A stretch of DNA of 25,907 bases from a virus: the IMG/VR virus record IMGVR_UViG_3300020394_000231, positions 1 through 25,907 of that record. One strand, 5' to 3'. The position numbers and the translations under genes are program-made. This document shows, in pieces, positions 7,801-25,907 of this stretch. The notes under the pieces were generated by a model. That model had not been told where the DNA came from. It did no database searches and saw only the letters and a program-made list of their open reading frames with translations. Position 1 is the first letter of the stretch; each line of letters starts with the position of its first letter.

Positions 7801-8780
7801 AGCTCGTTCTGAATCTGCCTTAGATAATTTTCATGCGAAATAACGTCACCTTCAGCAATTATTCTGGCTTCATCGGTTACATCAGGATCTGCAAGAGCTT
7901 CATTCAAGCGTTGCCGAGCGCCGTCTATATCAGCCTGCCTTGATGTTGCCTGTCTTAACAACTCATCTTCGGTCATGGCACCGAACTGTTGTCGTTGTAG
8001 GGGGTTGTTAAATTGATCCACCTCGTATGTATGATTACCAATAACCTCATCAACTGTTGGCATTTCATCTGGCATAATTGCTGCCAAAGCATCCGCATCT
8101 ACGTCTTCCGCTCTAGCTGTTGGTATTAGCGTACCTATACCTTCATCACCCACTGTCAGTGAATTAGTAAGCCTGACAAGCGCCTGACGCTGGTTTCTTG
8201 TAGCCTCTTCTCGTTTTGCAGCACGACCTGATTTAGCTTTCAACAGGCCCTTGATAGCACCACCAATAACAACAGGATCTACAATAGATGATAGCAAACG
8301 ACCTGTAGTAACACCGGGCTTGGCTAAAGTGTCTGCGTCCACACCCAAGTAACCCGCCAAGGCATCAGAACCTATAGTGTCACGAATTGCATTCAGACCT
8401 TCGTCTAAAACTGTTGATGGCATCTCATCAAAGCTTTTGCCCATAGCAAGAGCCGCCGCGAACTTAGGCGCGTCGCTCAACAGCAGGGCAGGCAAGTCAC
8501 CCGCTAGTCCAACAATGTCTGTGGTCAGGCCAAGACCTATACCCTTGGCAAAGTCACCCGCCTGTGCACGGCGCTCCGCTTCTTGGGCTGGCGTCTCAGC
8601 TATCCTTGCAATAGATGGAAGGACCGAGGTCCGAGGTCCACCAAACCCCAAAAATGCCTCTGGGTCATTCAACTGACTAAGCATGTTAGCCGCGTTTACG
8701 TCGCGGGACATCTGATCTCTGGAAGCTGGAAGGACTGTGTCGTAACGCACAGGAACCATGGGAGTTGGTTGTCTAGCCAT
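4851..8780 (-). CDS. Giant virion-associated polyvalent-type protein, 1309 aa
   Basis: This is a very large protein encoded directly after terL. Around residue 600-630 it contains HVRFIIVEGVDGKRYLQLNE followed by IQSNS. This matches the H-V-R ... E-I-Q-S-D pattern of a domain common in phage polyvalent proteins. The second half of the same domain appears about 440 residues later: an FAVRSIMQEAEKLGLDGVIF block at about 1068, then YGKILDEELKELSK at about 1122. The intervening segment is helical and charged. The N-terminus has hydrophobic/amphipathic stretches (residues 75-120), and the C-terminus ends RRAAGGMVRSGIGSMAREVM. Polyvalent proteins are often packaged and injected with the DNA; that role is inferred here. 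The catalytic activity, if any, is unknown. Joined to terL by a TAATG overlap. Confidence 0.8.
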   Translation of the reverse strand: MARQPTPMVPVRYDTVLPASRDQMSRDVNAANMLSQLNDPEAFLGFGGPRTSVLPSIARIAETPAQEAERRAQAGDFAKGIGLGLTTDIVGLAGDLPALLLSDAPKFAAALAMGKSFDEMPSTVLDEGLNAIRDTIGSDALAGYLGVDADTLAKPGVTTGRLLSSIVDPVVIGGAIKGLLKAKSGRAAKREEATRNQRQALVRLTNSLTVGDEGIGTLIPTARAEDVDADALAAIMPDEMPTVDEVIGNHTYEVDQFNNPLQRQQFGAMTEDELLRQATSRQADIDGARQRLNEALADPDVTDEARIIAEGDVISHENYLRQIQNELIGRRDGHITQLTQDEVDALPMPEEFEPPAALMDQIGEAIDQAAFSRGVPEEVSQDELVPLDVTDTNGNPIPEGTFAGQPGGIGALDEAAPVYGLKGVRIGASPDEYLGTVDHTSPTMANFYNFMGHNNGKTYAKRAAKDGTMTGDQWLSALRQNAANRQNIKAVGPEIKNSEFERILTESKDKRFSAEDVRRLLTTRLPQTRSRVYLESRFGGGTAETAPFGSRGPFHLSSQYRQEDLDAAIDKGVLIFSNTAPTIDVPGFGRQKPRAVHDYYGDYPGYYGHVRFIIVEGVDGKRYLQLNEIQSNSVSNLASGFKSGKTINDRGEEVNFYRKTLEDRLDGFAGRGESAVNESIRVPYTPEVHGLMQKYQDLMPESMKREKSLSKEIDQLEKTNTRLEREYATTHLPSRQLDESGETGTKLKYANTILSMASDPNIMARLVARAEDLGEYVGDATTRARSEIQTNISDHLDALGEIASPDQIEHILDLMTTVARRVKEASEGNMPMLYSRVMKQRITGSNDPFPRTREINDRLESLSPDQLASVLIRDRIIDDIAGAETIKMQAILSNNPKFRDAVTSLTPDELDLVNDGLRAREPVVESIFNKFTDADKAEILDELDQFYQSEITDQIAFGAANELKPERVLRLDNDEFFKDNINSLLALELDGLMNEFNIAKNNQKLVQLTEELANNMPAATRDKDPFDQTIANDPDGQKMLTLQDVAAKTETTNGQKGFQAPEPYDNEDDFTRFAVRSIMQEAEKLGLDGVIFPDANYLATQPQRMGGRPEQIVASDPFIRRYGKILDEELKELSKANQNAGVSVYDEGYDILPEYRREGAFTVNAIDRNNFGNLEILQPLEEAEAAAKKAKKEAYARLSDSQKQNYVIRKSLPNSNDVDFFESIPDQDAYYLQPYVAASEALALAEAQLRQVKRGLVQEYKAPIRVVEFGGPNDGLQAEANRQVVRRPIRRAAGGMVRSGIGSMAREVM
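8624..8640. repeat. Tandem heptamer CCGAGGT inside the 1309-aa gene
   Basis: Two exact CCGAGGT units sit head to tail (8624-8630 and 8631-8637), followed by the beginning of a third (CCA). They belong to the degenerate 7-nt family found elsewhere in the window. Here they lie within coding sequence, in the region for residues 47-52 (GPRTSV) of the large virion protein. Confidence 0.5.
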
Positions 8781-10270
8781 TAATAATATTCTCTAGCGCG
8801 TGGGGGCGGGTCGTCTTCAAACTCTTCGCCGTCTAAACTAATAAAACCGCCCTGACGAAAACGCATCAAGGCCATAGTCATACTATCACAGAAATCGTCA
8901 TGGTCGCCATTAGGAAATGACGCAATCTCTTCGATGACCTCGTCTGCAAATTTTTCACCAGCAGGATACCACACTTTGCCGGATTCAAAAATAGGAGACA
9001 CAATATGCATGCGAGTTGTTTTGTCCATGCCCCCACCACCGCGTTTGCGGCCCGGACTGAACGTGGCAACAGGTAAATTCAGCATACGCATCTCGTCCGC
9101 CAGCGGCTGACCCGACGCTTTGGCCTCTATCAGCATCAATTCTGGCTCCCAATACTCGTATTCTTCCTGTGCTATACCCTTTAACTCAGGAAAATTCCAG
9201 CGTCCCTTCTTCGCATCCATCAATATCAGGTGTTGTTCGCCGTTTTCGTGCGGTTGAAACACACCCCACGTCGTAATAGCAGAATAATCAGCCGTTTCCT
9301 TCTTGCTGTAGGCCGTATCGTACGATTGAATGATGTAATCTAGCTTTGGTATGGCGTCCTCGCCCCATTCTTTCCACCATTCCCGCTTGACCATAGCGGT
9401 TTCTTCTGATGTAGGGTTTTGTTGCCACTGCGCGTTCCATTTTCCTACCGACAGCGAAGCTTTGACCTTGAGTAGCTCTTCCTTTTGCCAAAATTCAGGC
9501 CACAATGGTTCCCCCGACGGCATAATTGCAGGAAATTCAACGATTTCCCACTGGTCAGCCATCAAATCTTTGCTCATCGCGGTCAGTAACCTGCCCGTTA
9601 TGTCCTTTTTCGACCACCTAGTCTGCACAATAATGATCGAACCACCCGGTTGTAGACGCTGTCGAGGCCCAGATGTGTACCATTCCCACGCATTATCATA
9701 CGCAGACGTGGATAAAGCGTCCTGTTCCGAGTGCGGATCGTCAATTATAAGCAAATCAGCGCCACGACCAGTCATTGCAGCGCCCACCCCTGCTGCAAAA
9801 TATTCCCCGCCAGCGCTAGTCTCCCACCGACCTGCCGCTTGGCTATCCGGTTTAAGGTCCGTGTTGGGAAAGATCTCCCGATAGACTGGGTCGGCGATCA
9901 GATCTCGGACCTTGCGCCCGAATCTTACAGCAAGTTCCGTATTCATGGTAGCCTGAATGATCTTGAGCTTGGGATTACGGCCCAAGAACCAAGATGGCAT
10001 GAGGTAGGATGCAAATTCAGACTTAGAATGCCGAGGTGGCATGTTCACAATCAAACGCTTCAAGTCACCCGACGCAATGCGCTCTAACTTTTTCGATATG
10101 ATTCTATGATGGGTCCCCTCTATAAAGCCGTCGTACACATGCTTTACATACGACATGAACTTATCTTGGGCCTCGGACCTTGTTTCTAGGCGCTTTTGCT
10201 GCTCTTCCAGTAACAGGATTTCCTTTAGGACTTCCTCTGGCAGCAGGTCTAGGTTTTGCATGTCTGTCAT
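8780..10270 (-). CDS. terL: Terminase large subunit, 496 aa
   Basis: This is the packaging motor ATPase and nuclease. The atypical Walker A reads MPPRHSKSE (residues 77-85), Walker B with catalytic acid is LLIIDDPH (173-180), and the coupling motif is VQTRWS (215-220). The RNase H-like nuclease follows: QSYDTAYSKKETADYSAI with Asp318, LIEAKASGQPL with Glu382, and NGDHDDFCDSMTMAL with Asp457/Asp459. I chose the ATG at 10270 (MTDMQNLDLL) over an upstream in-frame ATG at 10381. The upstream 37 residues (Cys-rich, no similarity) would cover the palindromic operator pair, and terminases of this type start close to the first helix. A three-unit heptamer repeat lies in the codons for residues 30-36. 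terS is not adjacent; it lies 2.5 kb away. Confidence 0.93.
   Translation of the reverse strand: MTDMQNLDLLPEEVLKEILLLEEQQKRLETRSEAQDKFMSYVKHVYDGFIEGTHHRIISKKLERIASGDLKRLIVNMPPRHSKSEFASYLMPSWFLGRNPKLKIIQATMNTELAVRFGRKVRDLIADPVYREIFPNTDLKPDSQAAGRWETSAGGEYFAAGVGAAMTGRGADLLIIDDPHSEQDALSTSAYDNAWEWYTSGPRQRLQPGGSIIIVQTRWSKKDITGRLLTAMSKDLMADQWEIVEFPAIMPSGEPLWPEFWQKEELLKVKASLSVGKWNAQWQQNPTSEETAMVKREWWKEWGEDAIPKLDYIIQSYDTAYSKKETADYSAITTWGVFQPHENGEQHLILMDAKKGRWNFPELKGIAQEEYEYWEPELMLIEAKASGQPLADEMRMLNLPVATFSPGRKRGGGGMDKTTRMHIVSPIFESGKVWYPAGEKFADEVIEEIASFPNGDHDDFCDSMTMALMRFRQGGFISLDGEEFEDDPPPRAREYY
10163..10183 (-). repeat. Three heptamer units in the 5' part of terL
   Basis: On the minus strand the sequence divides into ACAAGGT, CCGAGGC and CCAAGAT, three units of the same degenerate 7-nt family. 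They encode the charged linker around RSEAQDK of the terminase. A weak match on its own; listed because of the other copies. Confidence 0.4.
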
Positions 10271-10513
10271 GCCCAAACGATAATATCGCTGAATGAATTT
10301 ATCAACCCTGCAAATTGTGCACAATCGTACGCAGCTTGTATACAATATAGGGGGGTGGGGGGCTGCCACAGCCAAGGTCATTTGTCAATCAAAATCAGTA
10401 ACCCCATTGTTGCCAATATAGCAAAACACATTTGCTGAGATAGGGGTTAATGCTGCGTTGCCACCTGTAGTACAATCTTATCAAGAACCAACTGTGTCTG
10501 AAGGAGGAGAATC
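10271..10513. other. Divergent intergenic control region
   Basis: These 243 bases separate leftward terL from the rightward 62-aa gene. Besides the palindrome pair they contain a G-rich block on the plus strand (G6-T-G6, 10350-10362), a TTGACA box on the minus strand (10388-10383) without a convincing -10 partner, and a strong ribosome site (AAGGAGGAG, about 10501-10509) before the ATG at 10514. I could not define a confident promoter for either direction, although both must start here or be read from outside. Confidence 0.4.
10315..10345. promoter_or_regulatory. Tandem operator-like palindromes TTGT-NN-ACAA, 21 bp apart
   Basis: TTGTGCACAA (10315-10324, extended to 12-bp ATTGTGCACAAT) and TTGTATACAA (10336-10345) are both perfect palindromes of the form TTGT-NN-ACAA. 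Their centres are 21 bp apart, two turns of B-DNA, so dimers bound at both would lie on the same face. They lie 45-75 bp upstream of the terL start, in the divergent region between the leftward structural operon and the rightward island. A phage- or host-encoded dimeric repressor is the natural reading. The winged-helix protein at 11294 or the RHH protein at 19847 are candidates, but nothing links them directly. Confidence 0.55.
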
Positions 10514-10702
10514 ATGGCACATGCACACCTAGCTACCATCAAGGGCATCGACATCTATGAGGACGAGACCCATGGTGATGAAGTTCCATTCCTGTTCAAG
10601 ATCAATGGGAAGTTTGTTAGCAGCACCTTGTATGACTGGATGTACCCAGACGAGGTCGTTGACGCATACAACTATGTGAAGGGAGAGATGGGCAATGACT
10701 GA
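10514..10702 (+). CDS. Hypothetical 62-aa protein
   Basis: This is the first rightward gene after the divergent region, with a near-perfect ribosome site (AAGGAGGAGAATC-ATG). The product is small and acidic. It has an alternating hydrophobic pattern (ATIKGIDIYEDE, VPFLFKINGKFVSSTLYDW) suggesting a small beta-rich fold, then a C-terminal helix (DEVVDAYNYVKGEM). No family recognised. Strong initiation and first position suggest an abundant early protein, which is inference. Confidence 0.75.
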   Translation: MAHAHLATIKGIDIYEDETHGDEVPFLFKINGKFVSSTLYDWMYPDEVVDAYNYVKGEMGND

Positions 10703-10799
10703 GATCGTAATGTTGGTGTTGCTGGGCTGGGTCTTGATCGCCTGTTGGTGTCTGGTCGCAGCGCTCTGGGATCTTCGGAACCATGACCTTGAAAACTAA
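10695..10799 (+). CDS. 34-aa single-TM small membrane protein
   Basis: The ATG at 10695 overlaps the end of the 62-aa gene by 8 nt. The product has one clear hydrophobic segment, IVMLVLLGWVLIACWCLVAA (residues 4-23), flanked by MTE and a charged tail (LWDLRNHDLEN), so a single-pass membrane peptide is likely. A second in-frame ATG (10710) would still keep the TM helix. The 3' end overlaps the next gene by 17 nt. Function unknown; a superinfection-exclusion or membrane-stress peptide is conceivable. Confidence 0.5.
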   Translation: MTEIVMLVLLGWVLIACWCLVAALWDLRNHDLEN

Positions 10800-11124
10800 A
10801 CGTATCGAAGGGGCTGTCAGTGTTTATCCTGACATCCCCACCATCATTCAGTACGATCATATCTTCTACTGTGACGATGAATTGCGGTTTGCTGTGCTGT
10901 CTGATTTCAAATCGGAAATCGGAACGGAGCGCTGCGGTCAACACTACTGGCACGTCTGGTACGGCCCGACGTGCAGATCATGTCGCGGCGCACCCAAATC
11001 CGTTGGAGAGATGTGCCTAGCTAAATACTCACACGAATGGCGTTGCAACAGATGCTACGCCCGTAATCCAAAAGACAGCACACCACACGGCTGGCGGTAC
11101 ATCCCAACTGAGGAAGAAGAATGA
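10783..11124 (+). CDS. Hypothetical 113-aa protein with putative zinc ribbon
   Basis: The C-terminal half has two CxxC pairs: CRSC (about residues 63-66) and CNRC (about 88-91), with extra Cys and His residues (ERCGQHYWH, MCLAKYSHEW) that could bind metal. The N-terminal half looks like a small beta-domain (YDHIFYCDDELRFAVL). The start at 10783 overlaps the upstream TM peptide and has only a weak ribosome site, so coupled initiation is likely. The tail is acidic (PTEEEE). Family not recognised. Confidence 0.65.
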   Translation: MTLKTKRIEGAVSVYPDIPTIIQYDHIFYCDDELRFAVLSDFKSEIGTERCGQHYWHVWYGPTCRSCRGAPKSVGEMCLAKYSHEWRCNRCYARNPKDSTPHGWRYIPTEEEE

Positions 11125-11128
11125 TAAG

Positions 11129-11161
11129 CGCGGCGCGGCGGCGGACGGGCGCAGGTCGCAG
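11129..11161. repeat. GC-rich intergenic repeat, copy 1
   Basis: These 33 nt are identical to 11671-11703. They consist of a CGCGGCGCGG-type GC stretch, then ACGGG, then GCGCAGGTCGCAG, which is made of the CGCAGGT heptamer. Degenerate heptamers (AACGCAGATCG) and an AT-rich GATTATTG tail continue to about 11179; copy 2 has the similar tail GATTGTTATTG. The copy stands directly after the stop of the 113-aa gene and before the AT-rich leader of the winged-helix gene. Confidence 0.85.
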
Positions 11162-11293
11162 AACGCAGATCGATTATTGCATTTTTAACAAAATACATTT
11201 GCCAAAATAGTAATTGATTAATCCATAGTAAGCACTACGATGGATATATGGGATTCCCCCATAGTGTTAACAGTCAAATGAAGGGATATAGCT

Positions 11294-11605
11294 ATGACTG
11301 ATATCATCATAAACATCACCGTCGCTGACGGTAAGCCAAAGGTCGAGGTGCATAAGCCTGTGACCGTTGGTAAAAAGGTGAAGAGCGCACCAAAGCTTGG
11401 ATCTCCTAAAGTCTCCACTATTGAGCGTAACAAGCGCATGATCTTGAACATCTTGCGCGATGCGAAAGGTGGGCGTGTTACTCGTCGGACGATTGAGCGC
11501 GAGACAGGATTGTCGGCTAGCTCTGTGTATAACGGCATCTGGCTTCTACGCCATGAAAACGGGGTTTCGATAACCACTAGGAAGGGTTATCGTTTGGTCG
11601 GGTAA
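11294..11605 (+). CDS. Winged-helix DNA-binding protein (103 aa), putative regulator
   Basis: The C-terminal 60 residues read as a winged helix. There is a first helix (ERNKRMILNILRDAK), then a helix-turn-helix (TRRTIERETGLSASSVYNGI) with recognition helix SASSVYNGIWLLR, then a beta-wing (GVSITTRKGYRLVG). The N-terminal 40 residues are Lys/Pro-rich (KPVTVGKKVKSAPK) and may be a flexible arm. It is a monocistronic unit: its own AT-rich leader (11180-11283), an AAGGGA ribosome site, and a strong terminator 15 nt after the stop. It is a candidate regulator of the phage's transcription switch; the target is unknown. Confidence 0.75.
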   Translation: MTDIIINITVADGKPKVEVHKPVTVGKKVKSAPKLGSPKVSTIERNKRMILNILRDAKGGRVTRRTIERETGLSASSVYNGIWLLRHENGVSITTRKGYRLVG

Positions 11606-11620
11606 TATCCCGCCCGACTC

Positions 11621-11662
11621 AGCGGCTGTGGTGTTCTCCCTACCACAGCCGCTCTTTTTTTT
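11621..11662 (+). terminator. Rho-independent terminator after the winged-helix gene
   Basis: A perfect 12-bp stem (AGCGGCTGTGGT / ACCACAGCCGCT), a 9-nt loop and a run of eight T (11655-11662). A smaller hairpin (GTCGGG / CCCGAC, 11597-11618) overlaps the stop codon just upstream. Confidence 0.95.
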
Positions 11663-11670
11663 ACACGGAA

Positions 11671-11703
11671 CGCGGCGCGGCGGCGGACGGGCGCAGGTCG
11701 CAG
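11671..11703. repeat. GC-rich intergenic repeat, copy 2
   Basis: Identical over 33 nt to 11129-11161 and extended by another GTCGCAG heptamer and the ATTGTTATTG tail (to 11720). It lies between the terminator of the winged-helix cassette and the promoter-like leader of the Gp88 gene. Confidence 0.85.
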
Positions 11704-11717
11704 GTCGCAGATTGTTA

Positions 11718-11746
11718 TTGTTTTATATATTCATTTATGGGATAAT
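11718..11746 (+). promoter_or_regulatory. Putative promoter of the Gp88-family gene
   Basis: TTGTTT (11718-11723), a 17-nt spacer, then GATAAT (11741-11746) preceded by TGG as an extended -10. The surrounding sequence is AT-rich, and an AAAGGGA ribosome site follows before the ATG at 11773. A TATGGGAT string spans the -10 and recurs near 11247 and 13576, upstream of two other genes. Confidence 0.45.
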
Positions 11747-11772
11747 CTTATAAACTATTAGAAAGGGATATT

Positions 11773-12402
11773 ATGGAACAAGTAAAACTAGATTTTCCGA
11801 TGTTGTCTAAGCCGTCAAAAATGCCCGGCTATTCAATCAACCGTGACGCTAGGCTCTGCCATACTGGGTCGATGCTTCGCAAAGTAAAGGGTAGCACATG
11901 CGAAAATTGCTATGCATGCAAAGGTCGTTACAACATGCCAAACGTGATCGATGCGATGGCGCGGCGTGAAGTGTTCTTTAATGCGTTGGATTTTGTCCCG
12001 CGCATGGTCGCACTATTGCACAGCAAACGCGTTGCAAAGCATCCAGAGTTTAGATGGTTTGACAGCGGCGACGTTGACAGCGTTGCGATGGGTCTAAACA
12101 TTCTAGACGTTTGCGATGCGACGCCGCACCTACGTCATTGGATACCAAGCCGCGAGTACGGGATCTGGGCAAAAGTGTTGAAGCTTCGCAAGCTTCCCGA
12201 CAATGTCACGTTGCGGATGTCTGCAACAATGATCGACGGCATACCAGCCGGATCATGGCAAAATACCAGCACGGTCAACAGTAAATCGATGGCTGGTCAT
12301 ATCGGGCATAGATGCCCAGCACCACAGCAAGGTAACAAATGCGCCGATTGTCGCGCATGCTGGGATCGTACAGTTGAAAATGTTGCCTATATCGAACACT
12401 AG
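11773..12402 (+). CDS. Gp88-family phage protein (PF17338-like), 209 aa
   Basis: The pattern fits the phage Gene product 88 family: an N-terminal substrate-like region, a Cys cluster TCENCYACKGRYNMPNV (about residues 42-58), the block FRWFDSGDVDS (about 95-105), HLRHWIPSREY (about 118-128), and a C-terminal Cys cluster CPAPQQGNKCADCRACWD with VAYIEH. The function of the family is not established; conserved cysteines suggest bound metal or an iron-sulphur cluster. The gene forms a monocistronic cassette with its own promoter-like leader and a perfect terminator 6 nt after the stop, as expected for a moron-type insertion. Confidence 0.75.
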   Translation: MEQVKLDFPMLSKPSKMPGYSINRDARLCHTGSMLRKVKGSTCENCYACKGRYNMPNVIDAMARREVFFNALDFVPRMVALLHSKRVAKHPEFRWFDSGDVDSVAMGLNILDVCDATPHLRHWIPSREYGIWAKVLKLRKLPDNVTLRMSATMIDGIPAGSWQNTSTVNSKSMAGHIGHRCPAPQQGNKCADCRACWDRTVENVAYIEH

Positions 12403-12408
12403 GACAGC

Positions 12409-12440
12409 AAGCCTAGCGGGTTTACCCGCTAGGCTTTTGT
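12409..12440 (+). terminator. Rho-independent terminator after the Gp88-family gene
   Basis: A perfect 12-bp stem (AAGCCTAGCGGG / CCCGCTAGGCTT) with a TTTA tetraloop, followed by TTGTTGT. It stands between convergent genes. The minus-strand side lacks a T tract, so it mainly acts on rightward transcription. Confidence 0.9.
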
Positions 12441-12444
12441 TGTG

Positions 12445-12885
12445 TCACGCCGCCGACTCGCCGTCCGCAGGTTGCAGGTCGCAGTTCCACCGTGCGAGGG
12501 CGCAGGTGCGAAGCGCAGAAGGCGCAGATCGCAGGTCGCCGCACCATGAGGCCGCAGATCGCAGGTCATCGATCCTTGAACCTTGCAACTTGGCCGCTAA
12601 ACCCCCGTCAAATAAAAATACATTGCCTGTCGAGGGGCAGTGGAGCAGGAAAAAACTTACACCATTACAGCGCGTATGCCCCAAATGCCAAGCAATCTGG
12701 GACTTTGAGACAGAGACCTTGCCATTTTTAATTATTTTTAATTCAGACCAAATTGGTACGCCATCCATGCACAGATATACATCTGGCATACCCTCACCCG
12801 CTCTGTTTTCTATCCGCTGGAAGTGGGTCTTTTTCGGTAAATGTTGCCTCAATGAGTTCCACAGGCTTTGTTCTGTTCGTGGCAT
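12445..12885 (-). CDS. VRR-NUC-like PD-(D/E)XK nuclease with repeat-encoded C-terminus (146 aa)
   Basis: The core (residues 1-95) has the PD-(D/E)XK layout of phage VRR-NUC/resolvase-like proteins: Glu5, the segment ENRAGEGMPDVYL with Asp35, then PIWSELKII with Glu48 and Lys50, and SQIAWH. Such enzymes cut branched or flap DNA and help resolve replication or packaging intermediates. I start it at ATG 12885, which has AAAAGGG upstream; a TTG two codons earlier is also possible. It overlaps terS by 92 nt in another frame. From about residue 99 the sequence is low-complexity (RIDDLRSAA, WCGDLRSAP, NCDLQPADGESAA) and is encoded by the heptamer array, so the original C-terminus was probably replaced or extended by repeats. 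Confidence 0.75.
   Translation of the reverse strand: MPRTEQSLWNSLRQHLPKKTHFQRIENRAGEGMPDVYLCMDGVPIWSELKIIKNGKVSVSKSQIAWHLGHTRCNGVSFFLLHCPSTGNVFLFDGGLAAKLQGSRIDDLRSAASWCGDLRSAPSALRTCALARWNCDLQPADGESAA
12448..12592. repeat. Degenerate heptanucleotide repeat array
   Basis: Successive 7-nt units related to CGCAGGT / CGCAGAT fill this stretch on the plus strand (for example GCAGGTC at 12474-12480 and the CGCAGATCGCAGGTC string at 12533-12547). They run into CCTTGAA / CCTTGCA units near 12574-12586, the complement of the TCAAGGT type. It joins the terminator at 12409 to the body of the nuclease gene, whose last about 48 codons it supplies. It also has GC-rich GCCGCCGACTCGCCG at its left end, resembling the 33-nt repeats. 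Confidence 0.75.
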
Positions 12886-13396
12886 CTTCAACCCTTTTCA
12901 TGTCAGGTTCGGGGAATGCATTGGGGTATTGCTTCCTGATCGCGGCGAGTCGAGCGACAATATCTTCACGCGAAAGATTGTCAAGTTGATGCACATGTGT
13001 GGACTCTCTCCTGTCGATGGTCAAACCACCAAGACTAGATCGTATCTTTTCGGCATTGATCGCGGCACTGAATTGTCCAGCCTCTTCAGCGGCAACCGAC
13101 AATTCTTCAAACCGTTTGAGTTGATTGATCAAGGTCACGCCGTATCTGCGTTCTCTGGCTTGCCGCATATCTTTGATCAGTTCGGGCACTTCAGGGAAGG
13201 ATTTACCGTCAAGCAGTTTAGCGGCGTGTTGCGCGGCGCTACCTTCAGCGTAGCCAGCTTTTCTGGCACACTCTGCGTTGGAGTATTTACCCTCGACATA
13301 ATACTTGGCAAATTCACGTTGTCTGTTGGTGAGTCCAGCAGGTCTACCAGCCTTGCCTATAGTGTTTTCTGTGGGTTTATCCTTTTTATTTTCCAA
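12794..13396 (-). CDS. terS: Terminase small subunit (Terminase_2-like), about 200 aa
   Basis: The N-terminal DNA-binding part reads GRPAGLTNRQREFAKYYVEG then KYSNAECARKAGYAEGSAAQ. This is the classic L-T-x-R-Q-x-x-F ... Y-x-x-x-G ... A-A-x-x-A-G-Y pattern of phage small terminases, with a helix-turn-helix. A helical oligomerisation region follows (LIKDMRQARERRYGVTLINQ) and then an acidic, Pro-containing tail. No ATG is available at the N-terminus. TTG at 13396 has GGGGA upstream; TTG at 13420 is the alternative and adds eight residues. It recognises the phage packaging site and hands DNA to TerL. It is unusual that terS and terL are separated by a rightward island and the nuclease gene. Confidence 0.85.
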   Translation of the reverse strand: MENKKDKPTENTIGKAGRPAGLTNRQREFAKYYVEGKYSNAECARKAGYAEGSAAQHAAKLLDGKSFPEVPELIKDMRQARERRYGVTLINQLKRFEELSVAAEEAGQFSAAINAEKIRSSLGGLTIDRRESTHVHQLDNLSREDIVARLAAIRKQYPNAFPEPDMKRVEDATNRTKPVELIEATFTEKDPLPADRKQSG

Positions 13397-13429
13397 AATC
13401 CATCCCCGTGCGATCTCCAAAGTGTTACA

Positions 13430-13626: not shown

Positions 13627-13647
13627 CCAAGGTCCAAGGTTCAAGGT
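13627..13647. repeat. Three tandem heptamers in an early leader
   Basis: CCAAGGT occurs twice (13627-13633, 13634-13640), followed by TCAAGGT (13641-13647). The repeat lies in the 5' leader between the promoter and the ribosome site of the first small gene. Confidence 0.8.
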
Positions 13648-21565: not shown

Positions 21566-23101
21566 ATGAACATAGACGAACGGTTCATGGCTGCGTTTGA
21601 GGGCTTTGACGCAGCACATGGACAGACACAGATATCTGATGAACGAAGGGCTGGTAAACAGAAAGCTAAATCGTACATCGTAAGAAAGCCACTAACATTA
21701 GATTTAATTCGTGAACACTTACAGGGGTTGAACGGTGTTGGATCTATTCCTATTAACGAGCACAACAAGTGCAAATTTGGCGCTCTTGATATTGATCAGT
21801 ATCCTTTGGATCTGGTGGCAATAGACAAGAAGCTGCGCGACATGGAAGTGCCTTGCGTTGTATGCAGGAGCAAGTCCGGCGGTGCTCACATATTCTTTTT
21901 CTTCAATGATTGGATCAGCGCAGGAGAGTTGCGTGACAAAGCATCAGAGATTGCTGCCTATCTTGGGTACGGTGGCTGCGAAATATTCCCGAAGCAAGAA
22001 CAGATTCTTGTCGAGCGTGGTGATGTTGGCAACTTTATTAACCTTCCGTACTTTGATTCGGAACAGACGCTCCGTTTCGCGATTGACGAAGACGGTGAGC
22101 CAGCATCGTTAGAAAGATTCCTTGAACTCGTCTCTGCCCGATCTGTAGACCCAAATGTTTTTGTTGGTTTGACATTTGGTGAACAGGTTGACGAGTTCGT
22201 TGAGTGGTCCCCCTGCCTGAACTGTATGTTTGGGCAGGGGATTCCAGAGGGCACACGCAACACAGTCATGTTTGCAGCAGCAGTTGCCTGTAAAAAGGAA
22301 CAGCCAGACAACTGGCGGCAACGGCTAGAAGAAATCAACATGAAGTATTGCACTCCGCCGCTACCAGCTACGGAGATTGTTACCATACAGCAGCAGCATG
22401 AGAAGAAGGAGTATGGCTTTCCGTGTGATCAGGAGCCGCTCAAATCCTTTTGCAACAAGAGTCTGTGCAAGACAAAAAAGTTTGGCATCGGATCCAACAT
22501 AACAAACGTAGAGGTCACGGGTCTGTGTGTTGTCAAATCAGAGCCGCCCGTGTGGTTTTGTGATGTGGGTGGTAAGCGAGTCGAGCTAACGACAGATGAC
22601 CTACAGACACCACAACGCTTTCAAAAAGCATGCATGGAACAGATACACATCATGCCACCAATGATGAAGGTGGCTGATTGGCAGGTCATTGTATCCATGA
22701 TGATGGAAGACATGAGTGAGATCGAAGTGCCGGAAGAATTAACATACAAAGGTCAGTTCATGGACCTGCTTGAAGCATTCTGTGATGGCAGGGTGCAAGC
22801 GCAGTCAGCCGAAGAACTAGCACTGGGCAAGCCATATACTGATGATGAAGAGGGCAAGACATTCTTCAAGCTTGAAGCATTGATTAAGTATCTACGCAAC
22901 CACAAGTTTGATAGTTACAGCCGTGGTCAGATACAGGAGCGGCTGAAAGAATTAAATATTGACGGTACAGCCAATGGGCAGAAACGGTTCAACACAACCA
23001 AGGGCGACACCAAACCCATGCGTGTCTGGTGGGTTCCATGTTTTGGGGCCGAGGTTCAAGCTCCAAGGATCGATGTCGGAGAAAACGAGGTGCCATTTTA
23101 A
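21566..23101 (+). CDS. Archaeo-eukaryotic-type DNA primase, 511 aa
   Basis: The catalytic core has FGALDIDQYP (Asp75 and Asp77) and SKSGGAHIFFFFND (His108), the D-x-D and S-G-G-x-H signatures of AEP-type primases of phages and TOTE-type systems. A PriCT-like part follows (GIPEGTRNTVMFAAAVACKK, TPPLPATEIVTIQQQHEKKEYGF ending with the Y-G-F pattern) and a Cys segment (CNKSLCKTKKFGIG). It starts at ATG 21566; an upstream TTG would add 15 unrelated residues. The C-terminus ends NEVPF, again like an SSB tip. Synthesises primers for the phage polymerase. Confidence 0.85.
   Translation: MNIDERFMAAFEGFDAAHGQTQISDERRAGKQKAKSYIVRKPLTLDLIREHLQGLNGVGSIPINEHNKCKFGALDIDQYPLDLVAIDKKLRDMEVPCVVCRSKSGGAHIFFFFNDWISAGELRDKASEIAAYLGYGGCEIFPKQEQILVERGDVGNFINLPYFDSEQTLRFAIDEDGEPASLERFLELVSARSVDPNVFVGLTFGEQVDEFVEWSPCLNCMFGQGIPEGTRNTVMFAAAVACKKEQPDNWRQRLEEINMKYCTPPLPATEIVTIQQQHEKKEYGFPCDQEPLKSFCNKSLCKTKKFGIGSNITNVEVTGLCVVKSEPPVWFCDVGGKRVELTTDDLQTPQRFQKACMEQIHIMPPMMKVADWQVIVSMMMEDMSEIEVPEELTYKGQFMDLLEAFCDGRVQAQSAEELALGKPYTDDEEGKTFFKLEALIKYLRNHKFDSYSRGQIQERLKELNIDGTANGQKRFNTTKGDTKPMRVWWVPCFGAEVQAPRIDVGENEVPF
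23049..23069. repeat. Three heptamer units in the primase C-terminus
   Basis: CCGAGGT (23049-23055), TCAAGCT (23056-23062) and CCAAGGA (23063-23069) follow in perfect 7-nt phase. They encode the end of the primase (around AEVQAPRI), just before its NEVPF tip, so the repeat family is also inside a coding C-terminus here. Confidence 0.6.
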
Positions 23102-24893: not shown

Positions 24894-25907
24894 TCTATTT
24901 GACTTTGAGGACACATGGGTGCCGCCATCGTCGTTCCCTGACCTTACAAAGTATGACCGCATAGCTATTGACTTGGAGACATGTGACCCAAACTTGACAA
25001 GACTCGGCCCCGGCTGGTGTCGTGATGACGGTTATGTCATAGGCTACGCTGTGGCGGCTGGTGATTTTGTTGGTTACTTTCCTGTGCGGCACAAGTCCGG
25101 CAACCTACCGGAAAGACTTGTGATCAACTGGCTGAAGAAGCAGTTAGCTACACCAAACATTGAGAAGGTCATGCATAATTCTATGTATGACTTGGGCTGG
25201 CTACGTTGGGCAGGGATAGAGGTTCAAGGTCCTATAATCGATACCATGATAGCCGCGCCTCTGTTGAACGAGAACCGCCTGTTCTACAACTTGAACTCGC
25301 TGTCCAAGGAATATCTGGGAGAAACGAAGAACGAAAAGATGCTACGCGCTGCGGCGGCAATGTATGGCGTTGATGCCAAGAGCGGTATGTGGCAACTCGA
25401 CTCAAGCTTTGTGGGTAGATATGCAGAGCAGGATGCTGCCGTTACGCTACGCTTGTGGGATAGGTTGCGTGTGGATTTACAAAAGGAAGAATGCACATCT
25501 ATATTTAAGCTTGAGTCATCACTACTACCCGTGCTGCTGGACATGAAGCAACGCGGTGTTAGAGTGGACATAGACAAAGCAGAGCAAGTCAAGAAGGAAC
25601 TGCTGGTAAGGGAAAAAATATTACTAGAAGAAATAAGGGCCGAGACCGGAGTTATTGTAGAGCCTTGGGTTGCTACATCTGTGGCAAAGGCGTTTGATGC
25701 CCTTGGTCTTAAATATCATAGGACAGAAAAGACGGATGCCCCCGCCTTTACAAAACAATTTTTGGCAAACCATGAGCACCCAATCGCGAAAAAGATTGTA
25801 CGCCTTCGTGAATTTAACAAAGCCAACACGACATTTGTGGAGACTATTCTTGAGCATTCGCATAACGGTCGTATCCATTGTGATTTTAACCCTCTTCGTT
25901 CAGATGA
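24883..25907 (+). CDS. Family A DNA polymerase with 3'-5' exonuclease (partial, right edge)
   Basis: The ATG at 24883 overlaps the previous gene by 11 nt, with GAGGT upstream. The 341 residues before the window edge include the exonuclease motifs: IAIDLETCDPN (Exo I), VMHNSMYDLGWLRW (Exo II) and RYAEQDAAVTLRLWDRL (Exo III with the Y-x-x-x-D). A connecting part (ESSLLPVLLDMKQRGVRVD) leads into the start of the polymerase domain (NGRIHCDFNPL), which continues outside. No unusual insertion is visible in this part. It is the replicative polymerase of the phage. Confidence 0.92.
   Translation, partial: MKADLFDFEDTWVPPSSFPDLTKYDRIAIDLETCDPNLTRLGPGWCRDDGYVIGYAVAAGDFVGYFPVRHKSGNLPERLVINWLKKQLATPNIEKVMHNSMYDLGWLRWAGIEVQGPIIDTMIAAPLLNENRLFYNLNSLSKEYLGETKNEKMLRAAAAMYGVDAKSGMWQLDSSFVGRYAEQDAAVTLRLWDRLRVDLQKEECTSIFKLESSLLPVLLDMKQRGVRVDIDKAEQVKKELLVREKILLEEIRAETGVIVEPWVATSVAKAFDALGLKYHRTEKTDAPAFTKQFLANHEHPIAKKIVRLREFNKANTTFVETILEHSHNGRIHCDFNPLRSD

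Follow-up and report, generated by a model that had tools for sequence, protein, structure and literature searches.

Morons are single genes that carry their own promoter and terminator and are inserted among other genes. In T4-like phages, so-called PeSL cassettes place terminator and promoter motifs between small genes (Arbiol 2010; Comeau 2014; both as cited in PMC4503421), and according to the citing paper shuffling among related phages has been attributed to these motifs. Short conserved sequences have also been described at the borders of mosaic modules, where they are a possible substrate for homologous recombination (PMC3029335). In cluster K mycobacteriophages, many small variable genes are preceded by short repeats termed SAS/ESAS, nearly all of which share one orientation (PMC3203893). 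It has long been asked whether mosaic phage genomes arise at conserved boundary sequences or through random joining followed by selection. For HTVC023P-type phages a pan-genome with 13 core genes has been reported (PMC9599517). Our literature search covered open papers, and we found no prior description of the locus analyzed here in the main text of that study.

We analyzed a 25.9-kb stretch of viral DNA (25,907 nucleotides; IMG/VR record IMGVR_UViG_3300020394_000231), referred to as the window. The phage is placed near HTVC023P/HTVC027P by its TerL, which is 61% identical to that of Pelagibacter phage HTVC027P, and its portal matches the SU10 portal family. An initial annotation had proposed that two repeat-bounded single-gene cassettes split terS from terL. 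This did not hold, as the gap is general in the group. Several genes lie between the annotated terS and terL in HTVC027P, HTVC023P, DSL-LC04 and 023Pt_psg01, the two genes are likewise not adjacent in the IMG/VR relatives, and the terS-to-terL distance is 2-5 kb throughout the phage group. The two units in the window therefore did not cause the separation. The features of the locus are listed in Table 1.

Table 1. Features of the terL-terS interval in the window.
Feature	Position	Strand	Remarks
terL, terminase large subunit	8780..10381	-	phrog_38 (E 6.6e-104), PF17289; likely start near 10300
Unit 1, 62-aa ORF (family F18)	10514..10702	+	variable among relatives
Unit 1, 34-aa ORF with single membrane span	10695..10799	+	from translation
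Unit 1, 113-aa ORF	10783..11124	+	absent from all close relatives; right end abuts R1
R1, GC core and heptamers	11128..11170	+	homology of relatives resumes at 11125
Winged-helix-like protein (HTH_11-like)	11294..11605	+	alleles differ among relatives
Intrinsic terminator after winged-helix gene	11621..11661	+	12-pair stem (around 11621-11653), T8 tail
R2, GC core and heptamers	11671..11712	+	extra cassette of L003 sits here
gp88 promoter-like leader	11718..11746	+	TTGTTT, 17 nt, GATAAT; GGGAT motif
gp88 (PF17338), slot adjoining nuclease gene	11773..12402	+	GP88 match
Intrinsic terminator after gp88	12409..12436	+	12-pair stem
Nuclease-like gene	12445..12891	-	phrog_2165 (annotated there as DNA helicase); 3' end holds third heptamer block
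Third GC/heptamer block	12448..12592		mostly coding for C-terminus of nuclease-like gene
terS, terminase small subunit	12794..13420	-	PF03592, phrog_51

The exact 33-nt repeat on which the initial annotation was built is real (11129-11161 and 11671-11703). It is the sole exact direct repeat of more than 17 nt within the window, and its GC content is 88%, compared to 47% for the window overall. The full copies, R1 and R2, are 95% alike over 42 nt. A search for the 33-mer elsewhere, with one base left free, gave 0 matches in 84,980 species genomes. Rfam gave no match. The motif GCAGRTCGCAG occurs 44 times in 15 related records. A single copy lies outside the terS-terL interval, inside a helicase gene, where it matches a coding stretch that is also present in the window. 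This match aside, the repeat is confined to the terS-terL locus in these records. No stable hairpin was found in R1 or R2 (fold z about +1, no better than shuffles), which speaks against an attC-like folded recombination site as in integron cassettes. A second heptamer type, CCAAGGT/TCAAGGT, is found elsewhere in the window (8620-8640, 13627-13645, 23049-23067 and 25219-25242), in some cases near gene ends.

The winged-helix and gp88 units each have, as predicted from sequence, their own promoter and terminator round one gene, as in a moron. Both perfect 12-bp terminator stems were confirmed, with fold z-scores of -7.7 behind the winged-helix gene and -7.3 behind gp88, and the putative promoter before gp88 is present as described. 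The proposed gene identities were also recovered, with a clear GP88 match (E 6.6e-21) and a weak HTH_11 match below the Pfam cut-off. PADLOC returned weak CARF3 and CasR matches only, for the winged-helix protein. NCBIfam gave no match. Seven cysteines of Gp88 are invariant across 23 aligned sequences, and its AlphaFold model (pLDDT 86) has no significant relative in the PDB. In all close relatives with contigs extending that far, gp88 and a winged-helix gene are present, as different alleles. The single-gene organization holds for these two units but is not general, since unit 1 (10514-11124) has three ORFs. A terminator closing this first unit before R1 is absent and the unit runs into R1, although relatives carry one directly 3' of the 34-aa membrane ORF.

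The initial annotation further counted a third repeat block closing the second unit. Most of this block is coding sequence and forms the 3' end of the minus-strand nuclease-like gene, a member of phrog_2165 that we read as VRR-NUC-like. Its heptamers encode the protein motif DLRSAA..CGDLRSAP.ALR, which is conserved in relatives, and we therefore did not count the block as a third equivalent repeat. In HTVC027P (L096, 3178-3777) the C-terminus of the corresponding gene reads KLDACGLKLEPCCLGLEACGLHLE, a sequence apparently encoded by another heptamer repeat.

To describe gene content at this locus, about 87 terL-to-nuclease intervals were gathered from relatives and their ORFs were grouped into families. 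The family table rests on automatic ORF choice, and F24, F35, F6, F16 and F19 are among the ORFs that are probably not genes. Across the 87 intervals gene content differs widely, and the order terS-nuclease-cassettes-terL is kept. The slot adjoining the nuclease gene is usually occupied by a gp88-like gene; families F1, F22 and F43 match PF17338, F3 does not. Arrays of the heptamer GCAGGYC were found at 66 of 76 loci, 128 on the + strand and 0 on the - strand. A scan for strict 7-nt periodicity detected no arrays in the window and was too stringent. A terminator-like hairpin precedes 95 of the 128 arrays within 110 nt (102 of 760 random positions, 13%), and for 53 of 100 distinct arrays GGGAT/ATCCC occurs in the next 70 nt downstream, compared to a mean of 7.6 after shuffling. 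The GGGAT motif is positioned 20-35 nt past many arrays. The usual junction thus runs from terminator to GC core and GCAGGYC heptamers to promoter, and then to the gene. Promoters past arrays often have TGGGAT or the palindrome TGGGATNATCCCA near -10 (window 11739-11747; intervals of L022, L023 and L024), which suggests a shared regulator of these predicted promoters. Outside the gp88 slot, the neighbors of array junctions are no more diverse than those of other junctions (12/30 same). A test of neighbor diversity (0.12 vs 0.32) was set aside as support, as its signal is driven by the gp88 slot.

We aligned ten close relatives, the window included, pairwise and segmented the alignments into stretches of high and low identity. 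Genes at the locus have been gained, lost and exchanged, and the breakpoints concentrate at the repeat blocks. Homology of the window ends at different places within unit 1 and is back at 11125, three bases before R1, in 8 of 9 comparisons. On the R2 side it is regained at 11662-11671 or inside the block. In these pairwise comparisons, which are not independent and come from few close relatives, 28 of 99 unique resumption edges lie at most 15 nt from R1 or R2, where circular shifts predict 6.6. Intergenic length alone would place 11.6 of the 51 intergenic resumption edges at R1/R2, and 27 were observed there. Edges at which homology is lost are not tied to the repeats (7 observed, 7.8 expected). 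Such an asymmetry is expected where the right-hand neighbors do not differ among the genomes compared, which is the case here for the winged-helix leader and the gp88 leader; it would also result from a promoter-linked element.

Individual gains and losses could be followed in single genomes. The relative L003 carries one more gene, of 86 aa, together with a repeat and a terminator of its own. This extra cassette exactly fills the space from the winged-helix terminator to R2, so that a repeat-bounded unit, as the initial annotation had envisaged, is indeed present in one genome and absent from others. Close relatives lack both this gene and the 113-aa ORF of unit 1. Where L044 and L004 have a 36-nt terminator stretch, the window has 327 nt instead, and the right junction is R1. 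The product of the 113-aa ORF is encoded by only one other IMG/VR contig (residues 16-112, 80% identical), in a different setting and without the repeat behind the gene. By this comparison, the ORF looks like a gain in the lineage of the window, and its route may have bypassed the repeat on the left side. In L100 both unit 1 and R1 are missing. The junction in L100 (interval 90-240) is near two similar CAAAA-ACATTTGC copies, which lie upstream of terL and within the winged-helix leader.

Alleles have been exchanged as well. In gp88, the window shares 93% DNA identity with L008. L008, L003, L007 and L010, at 90-93% identity to the window, represent one allele with it, and L004, L018 and L044, at 70-72%, have another. 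In the flanking genes, L004, L018, L044 and L008 are all close to the window (terL 96-97%, nuclease gene 96-97%, terS 92-95%). Judged from these identities, the gp88 alleles conflict with the flanking genes, which group the window and L008 together with L004, L018 and L044. The swapped segment starts just before the gp88 start codon, at the promoter, and its other limit is close to the stop codon or terminator of the gene. The winged-helix alleles (window 11294-11605; L003, L007, L010) are near-identical in DNA at the gene ends and strongly different in the middle, and the borders of these swaps fall within the gene ends, not at the repeat. Likewise, the loss of unit 1 in L100 is near a different short repeat and not at R1. 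The idea of the repeat as a seam is partly supported by the clustering of breakpoints at R1/R2, but the likely seam comprises the entire terminator-repeat-promoter block and not the repeat alone; winged-helix swaps and the L100 loss end elsewhere, and outside the gp88 slot array junctions are not more shuffled than other junctions.

In these marine phages, relatives of HTVC023P/HTVC027P, the terS-nuclease to terL interval is a hotspot of gene turnover. Small-gene cassettes lie on the strand opposite the packaging genes, with a terminator on one side and the GC-core/heptamer repeat plus promoter on the other. The data show that content turns over, that block order is conserved and that breakpoints cluster at the blocks. 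Given the resemblance of these regulatory blocks across cassettes and phages, they most likely serve as short homology for exchange in co-infection, and exchange between blocks would lead to gain, loss and allele swaps in fixed orientation. We consider it probable that the terminator-repeat-promoter blocks are homology seams for cassette turnover; the recombination itself, a recombinase and independent transcription are what we infer from sequence. A recombinase of the RecT or Erf family was not found in five long relatives.

The repeat might instead be a regulatory element, an operator or insulator of the downstream promoter, with exchange occurring at random and only those recombinants surviving selection in which the break is between genes. 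The position of the arrays between terminator and promoter would fit such a role, as would the TGGGAT..ATCCC motif common to the promoters. The repeat also stays joined to the downstream leader, and the close group changes only on the left side of it; the exception is the extra cassette of L003, which opens with the repeat followed by a different leader and is hence a change on the right side. Furthermore, R1 and R2 are not homogenized within genomes, as the two copies in one genome are not significantly more alike than an R1 and an R2 taken from separate genomes (p 0.10). On the other hand, edges at the repeat exceed the number predicted from intergenic length, the array unit itself varies in copy number, and 10 of 76 loci are without any array. 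The intervals of two close relatives, L004 and L006, align with a single gap, an 18-nt unit by which their arrays differ in length. We regard a purely regulatory repeat as a serious but rather unlikely alternative and, through the intergenic excess and L003, favor homology seams over it. A stronger version of the exchange idea, in which the GC-core/heptamer block is a dedicated site maintained for cassette swapping across a broad group of marine phages, possibly recognized by a phage protein, and not a regulatory by-product, appears decidedly unlikely to us. A packaging role of the heptamer arrays, as pac or cos signals recognized by TerS, is highly improbable: it would explain their confinement to the terS-terL interval and single orientation, but the arrays are missing in the same 10 loci, vary in number and position and are tied to gene junctions, and the more conserved block directly upstream of terL is a better packaging candidate. 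The least credible reading, ordinary simple-sequence repeats accumulating without meaning in non-coding DNA, can point to GCAGGTC heptamer arrays in many bacterial genomes, where such arrays alone are too common to be informative, but is at odds with the strict orientation, the terminator/promoter association and the restriction to the interval.

The block upstream of terL, GGGGGGTGGGGGG ... CAGTAACCCC at 10350-10405, is kept in most relatives, and the DNA around it otherwise aligns poorly between them. It is a candidate packaging site or late promoter.

The locus is a natural, densely sampled case of gene-turnover junctions with a recognizable shared sequence, and it could be used to test the mosaicism question with metagenome reads and cultured HTVC023P relatives. 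Among known systems, it most closely resembles the PeSL cassettes of T4-like phages, as far as these are portrayed in the citing paper. In both cases a stem-loop terminator is joined to a promoter between genes, here judged by sequence, and genes are gained and lost between related phages at the motifs. The present phages belong to an unrelated marine group and are not T4-like, and, compared with the cited account, their junctions have an added GC core and heptamer array and are restricted to the terS-terL interval. Unlike the boundary sequences described at module borders (PMC3029335), the same block recurs here at several junctions of one genome. SAS sit at translation starts and ESAS add 17-bp inverted repeats (PMC3203893), whereas the heptamers here are direct repeats upstream of promoters. 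Like morons, the cassettes have their own signals, but they stand in series at one locus with a repeat in common, and some units comprise two or three genes.
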